Of a DNA stretch of 64,000 bases, positions 10,801 to 60,340 are shown one piece after another (positions within the stretch are counted from its first letter, which is position 1; each line of letters starts with the position of its first letter). The stretch covers positions 19,123,501-19,187,500 of the forward strand of contig WPIO01000001.1 in NCBI GenBank assembly GCA_009760855.2, read 5' to 3'. The notes below the pieces were generated by a model. It did not search any database. It was not told the origin of the DNA and saw only the letters and a list, made by a program, of their open reading frames with translations. This DNA comes from Cristatella mucedo (taxonomy: Eukaryota > Bryozoa > Phylactolaemata > Cristatellidae). The position numbers and the translations under genes were made by a program.

Positions 10801-12720
10801 AATAATGTCACAGGCAGTGACTATGACCATGCAGCCTAGGGCCGTGAAAGTGCATTACTTGGACCAGGCGAAATCCACGCTTGCAAAAGAGTTGTGCTCT
10901 CTGCGGATTTTAGCTCTAAACAAGTCTAAAGGGGAATCCTACTCAAATTAGACCATAGGGGTGCGAGAAAGCAAAGTGAGCACGAACAAACGTGTTAGTT
11001 GGTCAGTCGGCTTCCGCAGTCCTGCCGTTATACCGACTCTATTCCAACAGTACGAGCACACGCCGTGAAAGCCACATCACACCACTTCTCGCCGACCTGC
11101 ACTGGCTACCAGTCAAGCAGCAGATCGACTTCAAAGTTTTGTCGCTCACTTTTAGGTCACTTCATTCTCTGGCTCCAGCCTATCTCTCAGATGTACTCCC
11201 CCCCCCCCAGGCCAAGCATCGTACCACCCGCTTTTTGGAATCCAACAGTTTATCACTACCTCGTACAAACCTCAAATCCTTTGGAGACTGCGCATTTAGT
11301 TTGTATGCTCCCAAAGCTTGGAACTCCCTCCCGACTTGCATCAGAACATCCCCTGACTTGACCACATTTAAAAAGAACTTCAAAACACACCTATTTACGA
11401 CAGCATTTAGTGGGTCCCTGTGATTCGTCCTTCATGTGCTTATGCATGCTGACACTGTGCATGCTGCCACTAACCACATTTGCATGCTTACCCTGTGCAT
11501 GTCACCCCTAACCGCATTGTTCATGTTGTCTATCAAGCATGAAATACTCACGATTCAATCACGTTTCCCTTTGCAGCAAATGTAAAGCGCCTAGAAAGAG
11601 ATTGAGCTCTCTGAAGGGCTTTATCAAGTGTATTATTATTATTGTTATTATTATAAGATCCGGCTAGCTGAGTAACTGCTTGGCTAGTCGGATTCGACGT
11701 CCACCACAGTCGAGAGGTCCTGCCGAAAGACACCAACTCACGGGGGGGGGGGCACGAACATAATACACGGGGAACGCGTAATATACAAGTCACAACAACC
11801 AGTGTGCTATCCAGCTCCGCTCGGGCTTTGGGTGCTCGTTGCCTTGCGTGCATGGCCGCATCGCCTTTGATTTCTTGGCCGATGACACTCACTTATCATT
11901 CGGCCCTTGTAAGCCTTGCTCCACCCACATCGGCCACATTCAAGCATGCTCGGCCATTCACTTCCTGAAGCAAAACAATTGTAAGACCAGTTTCATAGCT
12001 ATGGGTAAGTCTAGTGTGACCTTAAACTCGGAGAATCTCACCTTCACGATTGGTTGGTCTAGCATCACTCCGGTGGCATCTGCCTATAATCTGGGTTTGT
12101 TGTCCAAAACTTCTAGCTGTGGATGAACATCATTGTGAATGAACATCATCGTGGATGAACATTTCAGTTACACCATCAAGCATTGAATTTACTTCAAGAT
12201 TTTCACTCTGGCTGCTCTCTCCAGTCGCTTTATTTGCTTGCACCGGCTTACCTATCCAACCTTATTTTTCCTCTAGAGTGCTCTCATACCACCTGCTCCT
12301 CGGGTTCCAATCATTTCGCGTTTCTTACTCTAAATTGAAATCGCAAATTGGAGATTGGAGATCGGGCCATCAGTTTGTATGCACCGAAAGTCGAGAACTC
12401 GCTCCTGGCTTCCGTCACCACTCGCAATGAATTTGCATAATTTGTGTCATCTGAAGATGTATCCTATGTGCCCAACCTTCCATGTGCCCTAGTGAACTTG
12501 TCTTTTTTTGTTCTTATATGCTTTGAATGCCTACCTGTGTATTGGTTTCATGGAGGTAAGGTGCTCCTCTTCACGACCGAAGTCGTGGTCGAATCCTGCA
12601 GTGCACTATCCTTTATTGCCAACTGCAATCGGTGGTGATAGCCGTTCAGGCTCTTTACCGCTATACAAATGAGGCTGTTTAATCAGCTACTATGTATGTG
12701 TGTGTGTGTGTGTGTCTGTG

Positions 12721-27100: not shown

Positions 27101-30100
27101 TTGATTGAACCGCCATGTTCCGCAGGCTCGCTCGTGAGGGAGTGCCGTGCCTGGTGGCCCGACAGCATCGGATCTAGCCTTAATCAGAGTCTATGAGTCG
27201 GAGACGGAGACGGCGAAGTTTAGGGTCGCTGCCGCCGCCGCCAATGCTTGTCCGACGTGCAAGAGCCTCCTCATCCTCTGTCTCTCTCTCACGACTGCAA
27301 CTGTTTGCACTTTAGGTTTGTGCCACCAAGCGAATTCTGCTCTTTTGCCGTGGACCAGAGTGCAGATCACATTACGATTGAAGATGCCTTGGCAAAGGAT
27401 TGTGAACTGTGGCTCGTGGAAGTTCCGGCTGATGTAAGCTGATGCAGCACAAGTACGCTTGTGTATGCAGCCTGCTTGCGATGAAATACCTTGTGAAGGA
27501 GACAGCTCAGTGAGGGAATGTCCATAGACAATTTTTAGGGGCTTAATTTTTTAATGAGATGACTTGATTTTTCCAAGTCAGTCGGTCGTAGTAGGCTACA
27601 CAATTATTCTGGTTAGCTTGCACTCCCTTTTCATTTAGCGTGAAGGCTTTTTGGCTTGCTTTTGCCTTCGGAATCTGCCGAGGCGACTGATAGACTGAAC
27701 GCTTGCCTTGCAGACATTCGATCCTGGATGTCGATAAATTTCCTGTTAACTTGATAAATACGTTGATAAAACAGAACTGTAACCTATAGGACACTCCAAG
27801 CGTGTGGCTGGACTAGAAGACTTCGTTCTGCTATTAATTGGTGCTGTTGTGCGACTTCCACCGTGTGTTTAGAATTTATATGTCATCTTTGACTACTGCA
27901 AACATTTTGATAGTTTTATTATGATGACTGCCCCACAGCTAGCCACCAGCTATAACGTTCGATTCCTACCTAAGAATAGGGACTGTCTGCCGTGGCTGCT
28001 TGCAAAAAATTTAACTAGCTCCCTGGCTCCTGTCTTGGCCAGATTATTGCATTACGATCGTGGCATGATTACCGAAAAAACCGATAGGCTACTGCCACTG
28101 GTAATAAATATGGCTGCAATGCTAGTTAAAAAACCAGGGCTTCAGCCATGTGTCTCCTTAGCTAAAGGAGCTTCGATGGCATCCGGTTGATCAACGAATG
28201 CGGGTAAATTCTTATGCTGACCTACAAGGCCCGCCACGGCTTGGCTCCCCCATACCTAGCTGAACTGCTGCATCAGTTTCAGCCTCCTCGTGCCCTCAGG
28301 TCCTGTAAGGACAATAAATAAGCTGTTCCATTCCTCTGCTTAAAGACCGTTGGCGACAGGAGCTTTTGCTCTGCAGGTACTAGGCTGTGGAACTCACTTC
28401 CACAATTCTTACGAAACGACAACTTCACTCCTACTGCCGACTATGGCACATCTTTTCCAGCTGTCATGAGCTGCTACTTCCATGCTACTCACTACCTCAA
28501 CTGCTCTCCTGACTCTGCTATGCTTCCCACTTTCTCTTTGTTGCGTTAGATGAAGTCTATTGGCTACCGAATGCGTACCAAAAGCCGTTTAAGCTTTGAC
28601 TGCGCAATAGAAAACTCCTGCTTAACACCCACTTTGTCTTTGTGGCGGCTTTGTGGATTTCCTTTAGGCATTTTGGTTTTGCGGCTACTTTGCCACGAGA
28701 CTGATCTGTGCAGATCGCCATTTCCATTCGGTGTTTGGGAGACTGTAGTTGCCGATGAGCTGTGTTCATAGCTAATGCTTGGGCTATCCCTGTTCGTGCT
28801 TAGTTGACTTCAACTATGCTGCTGGTGATTGCATCGTTGGGATAGTGCATGCTGTCACACGCAGTGTTACATTCTTGTGTCTCTAGTTTTGCATTTGATG
28901 TTTTGTTGCTGAAGCTCACGTGAATTTAATATCTGTATCTTGATCTGGCATTTCACAATAAGTCTTTGCTTTAATAATTTTTTGGGAAAATTCTGCAGTT
29001 CTGAAAGTGCGGCAATCAGTCGAAAGGGAATGTGCGGGTTTGTGTGTCTGTATCAGACAAAGGTAAGTGAGCAAACTGTAAACCTAATACTAAGTAAAGA
29101 ATAGCCGGTTAAATAACCTCGTTTCTATAGCAGCACTAGAGCGTTGGCAGCTTTCATTCCACTTGAATTTAGATTAAAGAATTGTCTGCTGCAGGACTTG
29201 AACCCCTGACCTGGGTCACGAAGTGCACGCACCTTCCCGAGGAGCTAAGGACCCAAACAAGTATATGTTTGCTGGTTCAATAGCCTCATTTATCTAACAC
29301 TGAAGAACCTCGGCTACCTTCATCCTACTTACAATGAAGAATTGCCTGCTTTGGTATTCAAGCCTACAAGCTCCGTGAGCGCTGTGCTGTTGGGTAGGAG
29401 CCTGTCGCCTTATTTTATGGCAATCTAGTAGATACTGGTCAGGGGAGGGAAAAAGAGAGAATGATTTTGTGTTGTGTCCTGGCCATTGCTTAAGGTAACC
29501 AAAATCCTAAATGTCGTTTCATTTGTCCATGTTGCCGTCGTCGAATCTGCACACGTTTTTTTCTGATAGGTCAGCATGGACGTTCTTGCTGGTCTTGAGC
29601 TGTCCCTCGATGAGAGCCATCAGGAGTTGACGATGCCCGATGGTCAGGTAAGTGGCTGCCACTATTAGCAGTCATCGGTCCTGCCTTGACAGCTGCTGCT
29701 GATGTCGCTACTTTTCCACTATCCAGCTGTGTTTGTTTGTTATCTGCATATTCGTGTGTCGTTTACAGAGTGGAATGTACCTCGAAGCCATCAGCAGCCG
29801 CTGGACGCAGAGTGGCATGGTAAGTCGGCCGCCTCACTGCACACCGGCTGCTCGACCTTTTGAATGGCTGCGAGTACCCTAATTTAAGAAATCTGCATTT
29901 CCTAGCTAGTAGCAACCGTCTCATCTTCGGTTGGCTGTGCGACCGATGTGAATTTATGCTTGTAGGATGCCTCCATTCTGTTGCCGAACAAAAAAGGAGC
30001 GACTCTGCTCCAGTCGGGTAAATAAAGAGACCTCTTAAGCGATGGCACCGACTGGTCGGTCGATCGGACACGCACTTGCTTCCCCCTACCACCGTCAGGC

Positions 30101-44244: not shown

Positions 44245-45160
44245 ATAATAATTGTAATAATAATAATAATGCACTTGATAAAGCGCCCTTAGAGAACTCA
44301 ATCTCTATCTATTCGCTTTACATTTGCTGCAAAGGGAAACGCGATTGAATGGTGATTAATATCTCATGCTTGATAAACAACATGAAAACATAGTTAGGGG
44401 TGACATGCCCAGGGTCAGCATGCCAGTGTGGTTAGTGGCAGCATGCCCAGTGTCAGCACGCATAAGCACATTATAGACAAATCACAAAGACCCACTAAAT
44501 GCTGTCCAAAATAGGTGAGTTCTAAAGTTCTTTTTAAATGTGGTAAATTCAGGGATGTTGTGATTCAAGTCGTGAGTGAGTTCCAGGCTTTGGGAGCCTA
44601 CGAACTAAATGCACGGTCTCCAAAAGATTTGAGGTTTGTACGAGGTACTGGTAAACTGTTGGATTCCGAAATGCGGGAGGTACGATGCTTGACCTGGCGG
44701 GGAGTAGATCTGAGAGATAGGCTGGAGCCTGAGAACGAAGGGACCAAAAAGTGAGCGAAAAACGTCGAAGTCGATCCGTTGCTTGATTGGTAGCCAGTGC
44801 AGGTCGGCGAGAAGTGGTGTGATGTGGCAACCGCGACGCTCACGACAGACTAGCTGCAGAGTTTTTCACCAGCTGTAAGGGCCTGATTGCACAGGCCGGT
44901 AGACCTGCAAGCAGTGAGTTGCAGAAGTTAAGACGGGATATAAAAAATGCATGGACCAACTTAGATGTGATATCCTACAAGCTCGAATTTTAGCAATGTT
45001 TTGTAGCTGAAAGTAGGCAGACTTGATTGTGGAGCTGATGTGGTCGTCCAATGAAAGGTCACTCTGGAACATGACACCTAGATTGTGTGCAGATTCAACG
45101 GGAGATATGCTGGCAGAGCCGATTTCTAGCGTTAGCATTTCCAATTTCTGAATCACACTT
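44245..45160 (-). mobile_element. LINE A 3' copy, long
   Basis: Starting at (AAT)n and the hairpin (GATAAAGCGCCCTTAGAGAA), it holds the 3' UTR, the C-terminal ORF2 region (SLRSQAPAYLSDLLPAR) and further upstream SASISPVESAHNLGVMFQSD and LDDHISSTIKSAYFQLQNI, the thumb region of an L2-type RT. It has few frameshifts and is among the younger copies. Confidence 0.8.
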
Positions 45161-45956: not shown

Positions 45957-46283
45957 GTAAGCTGCAGAGCCCTCAGGCGGGTACCCATACTCACGCCCAT
46001 ACCCACTTAACATCTATGGGTGCTGGGTGGGCGTGGGCGACGTCTTGTCATCCTATGAGTTGGCGTGGGTTGGTATTGGCCTGCCTTACAAAAGTCTCGC
46101 TTAAGGTTGTCTTTACGAGTTCAAACGCCCGAGTCTTCCCGCAGTTCATGCGGAGCCAAAGGCGAAGTTTTCGGCCAAGTTTCGGTCGGGTTCGCCAGAT
46201 TCGGGCGTCAGATCTGGATCAGGACGACGGGCTGTCAGACCTTCAAACCGACATTGCGAGGCTCTTCCGACGAAGAAGAAGAA

Positions 46284-46775
46284 GCCGGCTGGTGGCGAGA
46301 CGCCACCGTTTACGATCCGAGACAACGTCTCCTGCGAGAATTGGTCTAAGTTAGGCATCGTCCGTCGCAGTACAATGAAGATAGACTTCACCGCATGCCA
46401 GTCCTGCAAGGTGGTCCACGAGATCAAGGCCAACGCTGGCACGTCCGAAATTGGGAAGCACGCCTGTTCTCGCTTAGTTGTCTGCAACGGAAAGCGGAGC
46501 GATGGCCGCGTTTGCTAGGCAAGGCAAGGTCACCATGTCTGACAAGAAAAAAATACGACTGCGGTCTGGGCCGACTTCTGTGCGACGTACATGCACCCAT
46601 TCGAACCCCATGCCAACGACGGGCTCAGGGCGCTGATCCAGACCGCTCTTGACATCAGAGTCGCCTGCCAAGGGGCGGACAATCACCACCAATGTCAAAG
46701 GTGTGTGACGATCGGCCAAAGTGCACTGAAAGTGATCCTCGAAAAGCACCTGGCGACCGGTGCGGGCGTCTCGTG
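46284..46775 (+). pseudogene. hAT transposase, N-terminal part (BED finger and DNA-binding domain)
   Basis: It encodes CENWSKLGIV, then FTACQSCKVVHEIKANAGTS with CxxC and a following KHAC, a BED-type zinc finger. After a frameshift it reads WADFCATYMHPFEP and LRALIQTALDIRV, as in the Hermes-type DNA-binding domain. It stops at GVSC, where the LTR element begins at 46776. At least two frameshifts or stops make it non-coding. Confidence 0.72.
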
Positions 46776-47324
46776 TGCCGTATAACAGTGGCTCTGGCAG
46801 CGGCAGCTCTTGTTGGAGTCTCACGGCAGGCGAGCGTTCTCGGTTAACGAAACTTTCCCTTTATTACTCTCAACGCCTACATATATGAGAGCTCGATCAA
46901 TCGCAGCAGACAACAAGAAATATAACATGAATTAGTGGTGTGACGTTTCGCTGCGTCAATGACTTAACTATCGGCCACAGGTGAGGCATGTGCATTAGTG
47001 TCAGGGTGCTTCGCTGATTACAACTGCAGAAGCCACAGGCGCACACATCGTCCCTTCCCCCGCAGAAAATAGATTTCATAGTTCACCAGCCTAGCAGGCA
47101 AGGCGCGGCCTACATGACTGAAACTTCGTGCAGCCATTGGCTCCTCGCTTTCTCCTCTTCTGCCTGCTCAAGGCGGTACCCTGTCCAGCGGCTTGTTGTT
47201 AGGGCTCTATCAGGATATTAATTTAAACACTGAAGAGTTCCGACCGGCTTGATTGAAGTGCAGGGTACGTGACAGCCACTCGCCAGAGCCACACGTCAGC
47301 TCTGCTCCTCGCTAGCAGCCGGCC

Positions 47325-47660
47325 CTCAGGTCCCGTGTGGACTATACATTAGCTGTTCCATTCCTCCACTTAAAGACCGTTGACAACAGAAGCTTTAGCT
47401 CTGAATTTCATAGACTATGGAACTCTCTTCCACAATTCTTACGCAACGACATCTACTCTCCCGGTGCCGACTATAGCTCATTCTTTTCAGCGGTCCTGGG
47501 CTGCTACTTCCAGGATACTCCCTACCTCAACTGCTCTCCTGACTCTGTTACGTTTCCCATTTTCTCTGTGTTACGGGAGATGAAGTCTGTTGGCTACCAA
47601 GCGCGTACTGAAAGATGCATAGGTTGTGAGTTCGCTATACAAAAATCTCCTGCGTGACAT
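47325..47660 (+). mobile_element. LINE B 3' fragment inside the LTR element
   Basis: It encodes [33 protein letters not shown] and FPIFSVLREMKSVGYQARTE in one open frame of 106 codons, ending near the tail CTCCTGCGTGACATCCATAT. It is the least mutated LINE B end in the window and opposite in orientation to its host element. Confidence 0.75.
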
Positions 47661-48237
47661 CCATATAGTCTTTACGGCTTTGTGGAGTTAGAGATGGAGA
47701 TAGATTACATCGATGCCGCCCACCTTTAGGCAAAGCTGGGACACTGCTCCCACTGTCATGCGGTTCCCACAGGTCATCTCGGTGCGAGCCCGATGGCCGG
47801 TCTTATGCACTCGTCGCCGGCTGATCCGGTTTTGTGAAAACCACTCCGGCTCATTAATATGGCCTCGTCGTTTTTGAGGTTCCACTCCGGCGAGTCGATC
47901 TCGTGGTTGTGCTCCTCTGCGCTCTACACCGAGACACTTTCATGGGTTCGCTTCACCACCGAGATGCACTCAGCGCTGCTCTCCGCAGTCGAACAGATGC
48001 TCCCCGTCGCTACGACGCTGTCGCTGCTGTGCTTCGCTGCCGAGATGTCGCTCGCTCGGGCCGCATGCACCTCGTCGCAGGCTACTCGTCGCAGGCTACT
48101 CCTCGCCGCTGACCACTACCACCTCACCGATGGAAGCCGTCACACACTGCATCTTTCAAGCCTCCGGCTGCTACCGCTGTGCACTTTCTTCGTTCCGGAG
48201 CTCTTCGGCTGTTGTGGCTACTACGTCGGAAGTAGTC

Positions 48238-48729
48238 TCATACCCGCTTCCTCCACCGGTATGGCAGCCGAATGGCTGCGGCAGCTGAATAGGTTTCGCT
48301 CGTCAGTCTGGCTCTTTCGAGCAGCTGAAGATGGGATCGACCGATGATGAAGCTAGCTCGTCGCCTAGCTTTGTCCCGGTCTCGGCTCCGTCGAGCTGCT
48401 CGTACGAGCTGCTCCTGCTCCAACCTAAATCTCTCGGCCTCCTCATTCATCAACCACGAGAATATTAAGATTAACTCATTTCGCAGCTTGTGATAATCTT
48501 GCTTTACGTCGGCCGGCTGAACACACCAACCGTGTATCGCGTTATCGCCCAGACACACTGGCACAGCTTGTTTTAATGGCATCGCCATCTTTAGCCTTGC
48601 TATAGCCTTCTCAAGAGTTAGAAGCCAAGGCATAAAGTTCTTTCCGCCTTTAAACATTTCGGACCTCAGTATAGGCGTCCATTCTAGGCCATATAAAGTC
48701 TGGCACTCTTTTCGGCACGGGTAAACCAT
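48238..48729 (-). CDS. Gag-like protein of the LTR element
   Basis: An ORF of 163 residues starts 15 bases inside the primer-binding region. EMFKGGKNFMPWLLTLEKAI, then CLGDNAIHGW and DYHKLRNELILIF follow the order of Ty3/gypsy gag (F-G, W-L, hydrophobic, L-x3-L-x3-F). The end is rich in Arg and Glu. There is no zinc knuckle, protease, RT or integrase, so the product is at most a truncated capsid. Confidence 0.55.
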   Translation of the reverse strand: MVYPCRKECQTLYGLEWTPILRSEMFKGGKNFMPWLLTLEKAIARLKMAMPLKQAVPVCLGDNAIHGWCVQPADVKQDYHKLRNELILIFSWLMNEEAERFRLEQEQLVRAARRSRDRDKARRRASFIIGRSHLQLLERARLTSETYSAAAAIRLPYRWRKRV

Positions 48730-49064
48730 TCTCTACTACCAGTTGTCGTATAATAGTAGCTTCCGCGGCCGCAACTCTTGTGGGTCTCTCACGGAAACAC
48801 ATCACGTGAATATGAGCGGTAAACAAGGCTCTCCCGTTTTTACTCTAAACGCGTACATACATGAGAGTTCGATCAGTCGCAGCAGACGACACGAAATGTA
48901 ACATGCATTAGTGGCATGACGCTGCGCTGCGTCAATGGCTTAACTATTGGCCACAGGTGAGGTACGTACATCAGTGTCAGGGAGCTTTGCATATTACAAC
49001 AGCAGAAGCCACAGGCAAATACAACATGTTTACGGTGGACCTGTCGACAAATTCGATCAAAAGG

Positions 49065-49185
49065 TTTAATATAAATAATAATACGCTTGAGAAAGCGCCC
49101 TGAGATAACTCAATCTCTTTCTAGGAGCTTTAAAATGCTTGCATAGGAAACACGATCGAATGGTTAGTGGTAGCATGCTCAATAC
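49065..49185 (-). mobile_element. LINE A 3' tail inside the hAT
   Basis: AATAATAATACGCTTGAGAA, GCGCCCTGAGATAACTC and TCTTTCTAGGAGCTTTAAAA form the terminal hairpin, followed by TAGTGGTAGCATGCTCAATA. It lies between the LTR element and the transposase catalytic part. Confidence 0.7.
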
Positions 49186-49229
49186 ACAGCAAAAATAATT
49201 TCAATGACAAGGTTTCGCACATATCGATC

Positions 49230-50235
49230 ACAATCCACTAGATCGACGAGAACTTCGTGCTCATCGATCTAGTGGATCGCAAGCAGATCATCGTCGTCTC
49301 AGACGGTGGTTTGAATAGCTGCGGCGCCGACGGTCTCCCGAAAGAGTGTTTTTGGCTGGCCTGCCTCGACCACAAGCTTGCCACATGCCTGGCAAGCGAG
49401 CTCAACAAGACGACCAAAGTCGATGACAACGTCGGGGGCCTTTCTGCAAGTAAGTAAAGCCTTCACACAGGCACGCCAAAGACACTCGGCATGAAGCTGC
49501 CGATCGTGCCGATCGATGCGTGCAAGAAGCTCGGCGAGTGCTTCAAGCAGTCCCAGTAGTGGTCGAAGCTGTCGATGACGCTCAACCAGGAGTACGCAAT
49601 GGGGCGGAACTCGTTCCTGCGCTGCCTGCACAGCATCCAGGAGATTTTTTGACTAGATCATCGTCATGCTGAAAGCGAAAGACAAAAGCTGGAAAAGCTG
49701 AACGACATCAAAGGGACGCTATTCAACCGGCTCAACGAATTCTCGCAATCTACCAGATCGCTCTAGACCTCGATGCGGACCCTCGAGCAGTTCAAGCAGC
49801 CGACCGACTCTGCTCAAAGTTGCGTTATGGCGCCGAGCTGCTGAAGCACCTTGAGTCGTTCCTCGAGGACGCCAACGACACCGCGGGCAGAGTCGTGACG
49901 CCGGAGTATTCGGCCCCTATCATTTCTCTCAAGGAGCTCATTACGCTATTGACCGAGAGCAATGTCGGAGTGCGCGATACCCACGTCCTGGCGACAGTGC
50001 TCGACCCGTTCGTGAAGAGCAAGTTGAACCAATGGAAACAGCTCTAAGAACGAGTTAAGCGATCGGTATCAAAGATTAACTGATCGAGGTCGCCAAGAAA
50101 CTGCTCAAAAACGCTACGGATAAGATTGGGGACGGCAAGGGCGAAGACGCGGCGGATCATGAGGTGCCTGCCGAGCCGCTGGCCAAGAAGCAGTGCTTGA
50201 AGACGACGTCATTGATGTACGAAATCTCCGACGAC
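49230..50235 (+). pseudogene. hAT transposase, middle part (catalytic region)
   Basis: The first stretch reads QIIVVSDGGLNSCGADGLPK, ECFWLACLDHKLATCLASEL and NKTT, where hATs have the catalytic SDGA/SDGGSN and CxxH blocks. Later patches are TLNQEYAMGRNSFLRCLHSI and, at 49950-50047, VLATVLDPFVKSKL (family ALATLLDPRFK). Several stops and frameshifts. It ends at EISDDE, where the next LTR element begins. Confidence 0.75.
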
Positions 50236-50240
50236 GAGGT

Positions 50241-51789
50241 TTTAGTTTGTTCTTGTCTGCACTGCAGAAAGCCAGCCGATGCACAACACCAACAGTTTAT
50301 TCCAACCCACGAAGCCCAAGGGCGCACGGCTCCTTTCGGCTCCTTCTCCCCCTCGACCTCCCCCCCTCTGCCACTCATCCTCTGAGTTGGTGGGAGGACA
50401 AAGCCGGCCTGTCCCTAGGCCACAGCCGTCAGACCACAGCTGGCCACCGACCTGTCCCTAGGCCACAACCACCAGCTTTTAGACCCTGGGGTGGTTTAGG
50501 GTACTACCGGTCTTCCTGCACCGCACCGGCAGTGTGCCGGGGCAGTGTGCCGGGAGCCCAGCGATACGAACCATGCAGAGAACCACAAGCCACACCCCTT
50601 AATCTTACGGATCAGCATCATACAGGCAACTGAAAAACTCGGCACGATTGCCCTAACCTTCGCTGGTCACGGTGCCCATCTAGCCCGAGGCTAAGTAACG
50701 GCCGCTCGGAGGCACGTGACAGCACGGCCTTTGACCACATGCTGGCCATGTATGGCCCCAGCTTGCAAGCATCGCCGGCCCAATTTTTGCCTCGCCTGTC
50801 TCTACAGCGCCGCTGTGAGCCTCTGCAGGCGTTATACTGGCGTTCGCATCAGCCGACTTAATGGCATTCGCCGTTGCCGCTCCTCTCTCGGCCCCCCTTC
50901 CGCTGCCTTTAAGGGCTCTGCCTCCAGCCTGGCTCTGCCGCCACTACGAGCTCTGCCGCCACTTCTCCAACATGCACAGCTGCTTCTCCGGCCTGCACAG
51001 TCGCTGCGGCCTGCACAGACTCTCCATCCTGGACAGCCTCTCCGTCCTGCACAATCTCTCCATTCCGAGCGGATCACCGACTCTGTCGTGGACGCCGCCG
51101 ATGTCGCGGACGCGGCCGACTCTGTCGCGGAAGCCACCGACTCTGTCGTGGACGCCGCCGATGTCGCGGACGCCGCCGACTCTGTCGCGGACGCCGCCGA
51201 CTTCCTCGAGGACGCCGCCGCCTTCCTCGAGGACGCCGCCGCCTTCCTCGAGGACGCCGCCGCCTTCCTCGAGGACGCCGCCGCCTTCCTCGAGGACGCC
51301 GCCGCCTTCCTCCGTGCGCAGTCTCACCGTCTGTCGCCTCGCCCAATGCTGTTGCTATGCAGGGAGCAAAAACAAATGCCACTCACACGGTTCGTAGCCA
51401 CTTTTCTTGATCTCCCTCTCGAAGTTCAGCAACCTGTTTACACGGACCACAGTCTCTCCCGCCTAGAAATAGCCTGTAGTTTGTTCTTGTCTGCACTGCA
51501 GAAAGCCAGCCAATGCCCAACACCAACAGTTTATTCCAACGCACGGAGCCGAAAGGCGCACGGCTCCTTTCCTCCCTCCACGGCTTTTGGCCCCTTCTCC
51601 CCCTCGACCTCCCCCCCCCCGCAACCACTCATCCTCTTGAGTTGGTGGGAGGACAAAGCCGGCCTGTCCCTCGGCCACTGCCACCAGCTGTTAGACCCTG
51701 GGTTGGTTTAGGGTACTACCGGTCTGCCTGCACTGGCAGTGTTCCGGCGAGCCCAGCGATACGAACCATGCAGAGAACCACAAACCACA
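50241..51789 (-). mobile_element. Miniature LTR element with minisatellite interior, inside the hAT
   Basis: Direct repeats 50241-50594 and 51475-51789 share starts (T[G/T]TAGTTTGTTCTTGTCTGC) and ends (AACCACAA[G/A]CCACA). The hAT sequence GAGGT occurs on both sides (50236-50240 and 51790-51794) as a 5-bp target duplication. On the minus strand a purine-rich AAGATTAAGGGG precedes the left LTR. The interior of 880 bases codes for no retroelement protein and holds a GC-rich minisatellite, so the element is non-autonomous (TRIM-like). Confidence 0.72.
51068..51315. repeat. GC-rich minisatellite, two unit sizes
   Basis: Two copies of a 60-bp unit (about 51080-51200) are followed by about six copies of a 21-bp unit with the core GCCTTCCTCGAGGACGCC (about 51189-51312). 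In one frame the 21-bp unit reads Ala-Ala-Ala-Phe-Leu-Glu-Asp, and all frames are open through it. Confidence 0.85.
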
Positions 51790-51794
51790 GAGGT

Positions 51795-52172
51795 GAAGGA
51801 ATCGTGGCAAAAAGACGACGACACTTGTGTTTAGCTGGAAACGTGGCTGTTGGCGGCGGGATCAAGCATGTGGCCCTACCTGGAGTACAATATGTCCGCC
51901 GACAAAGTGCAAGAAGTCGTCCCCGCCGTCAAGCAGCAGCTGCCACACAAAAAGAAGGTCATCGCCGAATTACAGATCCTAATCTGGTAAAAGATGGGCT
52001 GCGGAGCTGCCCTGTTCCCCATGTGGCACTTGTTGCCCGGTCGATGCTCTGCACGACAGCCGCCAGCGTGAAGTCGGAGAATTAACTTCTCCGACGCAGG
52101 CAACACGCTTCGAAGCGGCCTTAGGTCCGGCATCGTTAAAGATCTTATTTTTTTGCTTTCCGATTAAGATAC
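51795..52172 (+). pseudogene. hAT transposase, C-terminal dimerisation part
   Basis: The frame reads VKESWQKDDDTCV, then after frameshifts SVKSE and INFSDAGNTL with IVKDLIFLL. This is the SVPSERxFSxAG...KLxFLxxN signature of the hAT dimerisation domain. It resumes exactly at the GAGGT duplication after the LTR element and is cut at 52173 by an LTR-like repeat. Confidence 0.68.
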
Positions 52173-52440
52173 TGTAGTTTGATTCGCACACCACAGAGCC
52201 AGCCGATGACCAACACCAACAGTTTATTACGACGCATGGAGCCGAAGGGCGCACGGCTCCCTTCGGCCCCTTCTCCCACTCGACTGCCCTCTCCTCGACT
52301 GCTGTGGTCCCCTGGTCGACCCCGATGATTCATCGAAGAGGACCACAACTGTGCACAGGCCGACCATGATGGTGAGTCCACCGTCTGTCCACCAGAGGGT
52401 TACCGGCCTGCATCCACGCCACATCACAGGCGAACCACAG
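52173..52440 (-). mobile_element. Solo-LTR-like repeat at the hAT 3' part
   Basis: It begins TGTAGTTTGATTCG like the two LTRs to its left and shares CCGATGACCAACACCAACAG, TTTATT and GGGCGCACGGCTCC. The right edge is uncertain (an ACCACA occurs at 52433-52438) and no duplication of flanking bases was found. Confidence 0.5.
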
Positions 52441-52698
52441 CTGTGCACCGGCCCCTCTCGGCGATGCTTCTAACAGCTGTTCGCCAGCGGCTTATCAGAG
52501 GAGCCTGCATACAATTGAACTACAGATACTTGCAAATAAAACTTGCATTCCCGCATGTTTTCCGGTGGCGTGGGTGTGGGTGGGCAGGCGAAAGAACTTT
52601 CTGGTATGGGTAGGCGTGGGTGGGCAGAGCCGATGAGCTTTAGCAATGATTGTCCCAGGGTACATGCCGAAATGACAATTAACGACTCTGGTAGGCTG

Positions 52699-53690
52699 CC
52701 AATAATGCCACCTTTAAGCCAGACAGAGGAACTATAAGTATATTCGGTGCTTGCTCGGGAGCTAGTGGAGCTCAAACAGAAACCGTGTGTGATGCAGCCA
52801 CTATTGGCTGGGAGAGGTTACAGTACCGTTGTGTGAGCCTGCTGCTTCTGCTGCTGTAATTAGTGCAGCAGCATCTACCACTAATATTTGCCCCATCTGC
52901 AAGAGGTGGTTGGGCAATTGACTCGGTGCAGTGGCCTCAGCTTTTGGTGTAAGAATGTGGTCCGCCACAGATGCACCCCCATCTGTGATTGGTTAGCCAG
53001 TTCGTATATGTACCCGCTGAGGGAATAGAGATCGAGTCTCGTGGACCGCTACGTCCTTGCTGTGTCTCCGTGACACTCCACAAGAACAGCCGCCGCCGGA
53101 GACACTGTCATACAGCAGTACACTCATTGCATTATTTCAATAAAGAGGCAGGAGTCAAATAAGAGATTTAGTAAGCGATAAAGGAAGGCTTTAAAAGCTT
53201 AATGAAAATAAGTTGTTCTGTAGTCAGACGGCGGTGCTACGAGATCACGTGAAAACAGGGTAGAGTATTACGTATGATTCATCTGTATGCTCAGACAATT
53301 AGGTGAACCTATATTGATTAGCCGTAGGTCAAAATTACTTACTAAAATAGAGCTAGCTCAATTCGAGAGATATGAATCCAAGCAGCTCTCTAGCCGGGTG
53401 ACGTAGATACAGATGAGCTCTCATGAAAAGAGACGGAAGTTGACATGAAAGAGATTGACTTCGAAGTGACCTGGTGAAATGCACTTGACTTTGAAAAGGC
53501 GATGCATGCACGACACCGCGAGTAAACGTTCCATTGAAAAGACCTGAACTTGGTGGGACTTAAATTGGTATACCTGGTTGACAGCTTGCAGTCAACCGAA
53601 TGACATGCTTCTGTGTGCAACATATGATATCGGTAAGTATTTGACCTGATTATCCAGCTAACTGATCTGATAATGAAAAGAAAGAAAGAA
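52699..53690. other. Stretch right of the hAT without recognised gene
   Basis: Around 52885-52965 a degraded cysteine-rich frame is visible, too broken to name. AATAAAGAGGC lies near 53140. Nothing else is recognised. Confidence 0.35.
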
Positions 53691-59114: not shown

Positions 59115-59800
59115 TAATATTCTATTTGGTATAGCTCCCTCAAAGAACTTTATCTCTTTCTAGGCATTTTACATTTGCTGCAAAGGAAGCACGATCGAAT
59201 GATTAGTGGCAGAATGCTCAATGACAGCAAGCATAATGTGGTTAGAGGTGACATGCACAAGGTCAGTATGCAAATATGGTTATTGACAGCATGCACACTT
59301 TTAGCACGCACAAGTACACACAAAGGACGAATCACATGGACCCGCTACACGATGTGATGAATACGTGCACTTTTAGCTTCTTCTTCTTAAATGTCGACAA
59401 GTCGGGATGTCGTGACGCCAGTCGGAAGCGAGTTTCAGGCTTTGGGAGCACACGAACTAAAGGCACGATCTCCAAAGGATTTGAGCTTCATGCGAGGTAT
59501 AGGTAAACGATTAGATTCACAAAAGCGGGTGGTGCGATGCTTAGCCTGGTGGTGGAGTAGATGTGAAAGGTTGTCTGGAGCCAAGAATGAAGGGACCTAA
59601 CCGTGAGTGACAGAACCTTGAAGTCGTTTCGCTGTAAGACTGGGAGCCATTGCAAGTCGGCGGGAAGTTGTGTGATGTGGTAACTGTTACTCTCACGAAA
59701 GAGGGGCCTAGCTGCCGAATTTTGCACCAACTGTAAGCAGCACTTGATTGCACAGGCTGGTAGACCAGCAATCTCTCGTCTCTTGTTTGCAGTAGCAAGA
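59115..59800 (-). mobile_element. LINE A 3' fragment
   Basis: Tail ATAGCTCCCTCAAAGAAC and TCTTTCTAGGCATTTTACAT, 3' UTR and C-terminal part. The minus strand reads QLPADLQWLPVLQRNDFKVL and LTVRSLHS. Confidence 0.75.
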
Positions 59801-59804
59801 ACCT

Positions 59805-60340
59805 GTCTCGGCGTGATAATCGCGTCAAAATAAAGCGACCGGTGACATCAATGATCATGTGCATGTGCATGCCCTAATTTATAAGGTCAATGGTTGTATG
59901 CTGTTTCTTCGCGATTTGAATTCGCGTCCTTTTTCTTGCACACCGATTTCTCGAATAATCTACCAGCAAAGGTCTGCCATGGGAAAAGAGGTGTGCCAGG
60001 GTGCTCACCGTGTGTGCAAAGGAAAGATGCAAACGCGCATGGATTTATGCAATGTTTGTTGCTCTTGTGATGTCATATACGACGCCGATCGATATGAACG
60101 ACGGGTTGATTTCCGTTCATAACATCCGTAATGGCTTATTTTACACAGAAAGTCATCAAATGACACTCAGCATGATACCTTTGTGTTCATTAAATTCTGT
60201 TCACGCTTATTGCGCTTACATGATTCAAGCACTCGATTTTAACGTATCATAACAGTGATAAAAAAGATATAGTATCCTTACGTTATAAATTGGTTAATGG
60301 GATAGTTTCAAGACTGATTCGTGGCCTAAACACATCCAGT
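59805..60340. other. Stretch without recognised feature
   Basis: Overlapping open frames at 59859-60252 lack recognisable similarity, splice sites or promoter elements. Confidence 0.3.

Follow-up and report, generated by a model that had tools for sequence, protein, structure and literature searches.

The bryozoan Cristatella mucedo carries, in a 64-kb stretch of contig WPIO01000001.1 (positions 19123501-19187500, hereafter the window, to which all coordinates refer), a decayed hAT-superfamily transposon that almost certainly inserted here and was hit by later mobile elements. The element spans 45965-52690, starts with CAGAG, ends with CTCTG, and is flanked by GTAAGCTG and GTAGGCTG, which match in 7 of 8 bases. 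With its inserts it measures 6726 bp, and arithmetic removal of these, using the corrected border of LTR-C and its 5-bp duplicate, leaves a hAT remnant of 2414 bp (Table 1). The inserts comprise the long terminal repeat (LTR) elements LTR-A and LTR-B, the solo LTR-like repeat LTR-C, and the tail of a long interspersed nuclear element (LINE), LINE-A, and a second LINE fragment, LINE-B, is nested within LTR-A. The original prediction had described three ordered blocks of broken transposase on a single strand, separated by gaps filled with four inserts. Order and strand hold for all transposase pieces, but a fourth piece lies between LTR-A and LINE-A; likewise, all four inserts were found, whereas the gag of LTR-A was not confirmed and one LTR-C border was misplaced.

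Table 1. Coordinates of the hAT element, its pieces, and the inserted elements in the window
Feature	Position	Strand	Basis
hAT target-site duplication, left copy GTAAGCTG	45957-45964	no strand	sequence
hAT left end (CAGAGCCCTCAG...) and broken N-terminal transposase piece	45965-46775	+	genome matches, alignment to relatives
LTR-A element	46776-49023	-	LTR pair, empty site in relatives
LINE-B fragment nested in LTR-A, borders approximate	47322-47690	+	window copies 28292-28660 and 4964-4609
Short transposase piece separating LTR-A from LINE-A, with TVDLST (first catalytic motif) at 49032	49029-49067	+	motif search, relatives
LINE-A tail, 5'-truncated	49068-49203	-	alignment of 12 window copies including this one
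Transposase middle piece; at 49293 the second catalytic Asp with the CxxH motif	49216-50240	+	motif search, relatives
LTR-B, short LTR element	50241-51789	no strand	LTR pair, duplication, empty site in relatives
C-terminal transposase piece, broken	51790-52172	+	relatives; overlapping part of L051 matches PF05699 (E 0.0025)
LTR-C, 352-bp solo LTR-like repeat (TGTAG...CTACA)	52173-52524	no strand	duplication, relatives, genome copies
hAT 3' end, CCCAY-type motifs on minus strand, terminus CTCTG	52530-52690	+	motif count, relatives
hAT target-site duplication, right copy GTAGGCTG	52691-52698	no strand	sequence

The division of one hAT element by later insertions was borne out by empty sites elsewhere in the genome (572,011,866 bases). 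Parts of the transposase core occur at 10 other genome places (15 matches including the window), all of which were compared (L009-L012 and L048-L053). Empty sites were called by Blast of the window element against these ten relatives, counting only those aligned on both sides of a site. The LTR-A/LINE-A site was empty in 6/6 such relatives (L009-L012, also compared base by base, L048, and L049), the LTR-B site in 7/7 (L010, L012, L048, L049, L050, L051, and L053), and the LTR-C site in 6/6 (L010, L012, L049, L050, L051, and L053). Conversely, copies with an equal intervening sequence, which the original prediction had named as counter-evidence, were found in 0/6, 0/7, and 0/6 relatives, respectively. 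In L010, L012, L050, and L051 the two sides of the LTR-B site abut directly, overlapping slightly at the 5-bp target, whereas about 98 bp intervene in L049, and some bases beside the site are missing in L048 and L053; L052, aligned only on the left side of this site, was uninformative. Collinearity with the hAT pieces extends over 2.93 kb in L010, which lacks all four inserts. Intact relatives of 3-4 kb had been expected, but the remnant amounts to about 2.4 kb and L010 to 2.9 kb. Over the longer matches, the scored genome relatives of the window's element show 65-81% similarity. The longest open frame listed for the translated stretches of the core relatives, ten in all, has 277 codons and no whole transposase frame was seen, and the family is probably extinct.

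The ends of the element were assessed both within the window and across the genome. A blind window-wide search for CAGAG...CTCTG pairs with at least 7 of 8 matching flank bases returned one match among 543 pairs, and the same search in 30 Markov controls gave a mean of 0.33, with at least one match in 8/30. Because the controls also yield such matches, the flanks of the window's copy alone prove little. The left part of the element gave 58 genome matches including the window (40 scored of 139 first-look candidates), several of which start at 45964 or 45965. Both ends were sought at 26 loci; L011, L015, and L018 and loci repeating another stretch (L001-L003, L014, L017, and L034) had been set aside beforehand and are not among the 26. 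Copies ending elsewhere had been proposed as a refutation; both termini were reached in 20 of the 26 loci, with a CAGAG start in 14/20 and a CTCTG end in 14/20, and the termini of the window's element are firm because genome relatives end at the same ones. The commonest terminal 12-mers among the 20 relatives were CAGAGCCCTCAA (8/20) and TTGAGGGCTCTG (5/20), and the right end of the window's copy is diverged. The predicted 8-bp duplication likewise has parallels among these relatives, whose flanks match in 7 or 8 bases in 6/20 cases and in 6 bases in 3 more, compared with at least 7 matches in 2/380 pairs and at least 6 in 7/380 when flanks were swapped between loci.

Nearly all of the loci with both ends (19/20) are short, 383-880 bp, and consist of the window's left and right ends joined, resembling miniature inverted-repeat transposable elements (MITEs; e.g., L004-L008, L013, and L022-L029); some of these MITE-like copies carry 8-bp duplications. 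The sole long relative with both ends is L010 (2934 bp), whose own termini are flanked by GTAGACAT and GCAGACAT. In the window's element the leftmost 180 bp contain three plus-strand CCCAY motifs and the rightmost 180 bp six minus-strand ones, a density consistent with subterminal repeats. For Hermes, a BED finger of the CCHC type, subterminal repeats, and an nTnnnnAn target preference are described (PMC10368747). Among the left duplication copies of the six relatives with 7-8 matching flank bases, this Ac-like pattern fits L007, L010, L013, and L025 but not L005 and L006; the window's target has the T at position 2 but not the A at position 7.

The transposase pieces, ordered along one strand, were examined by motif, peptide, and profile searches. 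The N-terminal piece, read by eye, contains a BED-like CxxC and a DNA-binding part. To locate the RNase-H-like hAT core, three patterns drafted after inspection of the window were searched in six frames of the 64 kb, and each gave one match, in place and in order: TVDLST at 49032 (D1), SHISITIH*ID at 49215 (strand), and VVSDGGLN...CLDHKL at 49293 (D2). Sixty Markov controls yielded means of 0.1, 0.017, and 0 for these patterns, respectively. Stretches similar to the core motifs are present in relatives, and a Hermes alignment from the PDB search, itself a weak match to a generic query, includes a similar VTD..AN...CSSHLL stretch. Five of six pure-window peptide queries (BED, DBD, M, M3, and C) matched relatives at 36-59% identity and M2 matched none; the D1 and D2 peptide queries contained letters from relatives. 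The BED pattern was uninformative, with 20 occurrences in the window versus a control mean of 14.1, and the strict BED CxxC...H spacing had no match at the N-terminal piece.

The BED and dimerisation domains that had been predicted were not recovered at the level of Pfam, where neither a BED zinc finger (PF02892) nor a dimerisation domain (PF05699) was matched in the window. A frame of L051 matched Dimer_Tnp_hAT (PF05699) at E 0.0025 (18.0 bits, cut-off 21.4) and no other family, and a frame of L010 matched zf-BED (PF02892) at E 0.061 (13.8 bits, cut-off 20.6), again with no other family. When the members of the small profiles of relatives were scanned singly in Pfam, profile A1 gave nothing and profile A2 gave one zf-BED match at E 0.087 (1/5 members) beside Zn_ribbon_4 at E 0.011; the PDB list of profile A1 was topped by a de novo TIM barrel (E 0.0027), which was taken as chance. 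Rfam at gathering thresholds gave no match in the window, and no relative was found in the viral and the bacterial/archaeal contigs searched.

The window's copy is also damaged, with about nine stop codons on or beside the transposase path read by eye; in comparison with L009 and L010, approximately 90-110 bp of transposase are also absent near 49270-49281. Where these bases are missing there is a quasi-palindrome with 21-bp arms (49233-49253 and 49257-49277, 90% complementary), which might represent a template-switch mutation.

Several results weigh against a single decayed and invaded hAT element. The flanks of 14/20 relatives with both ends have fewer than 7 of 8 matches, and 11/20 show no match even at 6. 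The best alignment of the left with the right end of the window's element is not significant (171/2000 window pairs and 122/2000 shuffles were equally good). The 5-mers flanking LTR-A, TCGTG and ACATG, match in only 3 of 5 bases, no better than chance (~0.10), and the reading frame carrying the first catalytic motif is out of phase with the frame to the right of LINE-A. In homology searches, the window's own pieces, as single frames or read together, gave no hAT-type match in Pfam or PDB, nor did small profiles of relatives, built for the D2 and BED regions, match any hAT entry in PDB. The 18 frames of relatives scanned against Pfam produced one Dimer_Tnp_hAT and one zf-BED match, both under the curated cut-off. 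Unrelated families match as well as zf-BED in other frames (for example, E 0.011, 0.032, and 0.035), so the zf-BED match of L010 carries little weight.

Two other accounts of the locus were considered. If the blocks were separate, unrelated hAT fragments adjoining by chance, their decay, such that Pfam recognizes none of them in the window, would be accommodated; however, L010 has the blocks in the same order and strand between the same two ends, and in L012, L049, L050, and L051 several blocks stand joined, which makes a chance assembly very improbable. The intervening sequences might instead belong to the hAT element itself, as introns or old parts, and introns do occur in hAT genes, BuT2 having five exons (PMC3942097). 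Yet these stretches contain LTR pairs or recur elsewhere, are flanked by duplications (except LTR-A), and are absent in relatives, and we give this account practically no credence.

A different question concerns the nature of LTR-C. The predicted third insert, 52173-52440, ends instead at 52524: its borders fall at 52171-52173 and 52525 in the alignments of L010, L051, and L053 (and to within about 10 bases of 52172 and 52525 in that of L012), and with the right border moved accordingly a perfect 5-bp duplication, GATAC, becomes evident on both sides (52168-52172 and 52525-52529). LTR-C recurs many times across the genome: a search returned 41 matches including the window, with 40 scored out of 2338 first-look candidates. 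The matches outside the window are 85-92% identical, and among the 40 other scored matches 9 span the whole unit and 13 span positions 1-343 of 352. L056, L057, and L059 contain copies with a variable CATA-type stretch just ahead of the conserved GAACTACA end. Six further copies in five loci, with duplications counted by reading through this stretch, showed perfect 5-bp duplications in three cases, 4 of 5 matching bases in one, an offset duplication in one, and none in one. In L056, a role of LTR-C as one member of an LTR pair was rejected, as both copies there have their own flanking repeat (5/5 and 4/5).

LTR-C could be viewed as a short non-autonomous DNA element that makes 5-bp duplications and has about 100 bp in common with the LTR-B repeats, rather than as a solo LTR. 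No LTR pair was found around the six further copies in about 1.5 kb of flank each, the ends are inverted (TGTAGTT.../...AACTACA), and both the three perfect duplications past the CATA stretch and the many first-look candidates would suit such an element. Against it, the first ~100 bp show an 82-85% match to the LTR-B repeats, and a 5-bp duplication with TG...CA ends suits an LTR; we regard the DNA-element reading as unlikely, and LTR-C is treated here as a solo LTR-like repeat. A broader proposal is that the hAT family, with its ten other transposase-bearing remnants, seeded many MITE-like copies of about 0.4-0.9 kb and that, at the same time, LTR-C spreads by itself, with 5-bp duplications, as an abundant independent element of 350 bp. 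This combination appears rather doubtful.

LTR-B is bounded by repeats of 354 bp (50241-50594) and 315 bp (51475-51789) with 94% identity over aligned bases (Kimura two-parameter distance, K2P, 0.064) and by a perfect 5-bp duplication, GAGGT (50236-50240 and 51790-51794). The reading phase in the window is equal on either side of LTR-B, and a 204-codon open frame in L051 spans its site. LTR-B is presumably comparable to short LTR elements of the TRIM/SMART type, which it resembles in its length of 1.55 kb, its repeat lengths, its 5-bp duplication, and the fact that no coding domain was noticed; unlike them, its internal part has GC-rich tandem repeats. These repeats have a 21-bp period and lie at 51075-51312.

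The repeats of LTR-A, 272 bp (46776-47047) and 280 bp (48744-49023), are 80% identical (K2P 0.234). LTR-A is clearly older than LTR-B, given the K2P values of 0.234 versus 0.064, and LINE-B, being nested within LTR-A, is younger than LTR-A. The predicted order of insertion, in which the hAT element was followed by LTR elements and then by LINE-B within one of them, follows from this nesting. A candidate gag-like frame in LTR-A (48238-48732, minus strand, 164 aa) matched 0 Pfam families and one PDB entry, P element transposase, at E 1.2. Just beyond the right end of the hAT element, a fragment related to the end of LTR-A (76%) lies on the opposite strand at 52827-52885.

The LINE-A tail has 13 other matches in the window, 11 of which were aligned with it. 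It is flanked by an imperfect 12-bp duplication (49056-49067 and 49204-49215) that matches in 10/12 bases, and 19/3000 random window pairs were equally good. Judged by the positions of the motifs, the reading phase is not kept across LINE-A where the frame with the first catalytic motif is concerned.

By far the most likely history begins with a hAT-superfamily DNA transposon that would have integrated by cut-and-paste, duplicating 8 bp of target. Its transposase gene decayed, and the element, probably already inactive, became landing space for others. LTR-A entered before LTR-B, with 5'-truncated LINE-B landing in it afterwards, and the LINE-A tail entered the hAT element close to LTR-A. LTR-B entered later, making its 5-bp duplication, and LTR-C landed near the hAT 3' end, also with a 5-bp duplication; the timing of LINE-A and LTR-C relative to the other inserts is tentative.

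PMC3942097 gives hAT elements as 2.5-5 kb long with short terminal inverted repeats and 8-bp duplications. The element described here resembles the hAT superfamily (hobo, Hermes, BuT2, and Tip100) in its 8-bp duplication, short CAGAG-type terminal inverted repeats, and size of about 2.5-3 kb, as well as in the ordered transposase core motifs and a weak hATC-like C-terminus in a relative. In contrast to these known hATs, the window's copy is broken and without a profile match of its own. PMC3942097 also reports a D. mojavensis BuT2 copy holding an insert of ~1.7 kb, likely mariner, which is comparable in being a hAT element with visible 8-bp duplications that was split by a later transposable element; the window's element differs from it in having four inserts and one second-level insert, of retroelement type. 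The nested arrangement and its anatomy are of known kinds and form an ordinary example, which changes no idea about transposition. The locus yields a multi-layer insertion history checked against empty sites, and by defining the two ends of a hAT family, together with its short copies in this genome, it aids repeat annotation.

Outside the element, three frames, at 10980-11420 (the only one of the three scanned in Pfam, with no LINE match), 44605-44865, and 59491-59847, resemble by eye the ends of L2-type LINE reverse transcriptases, with a HWLPV-like motif.

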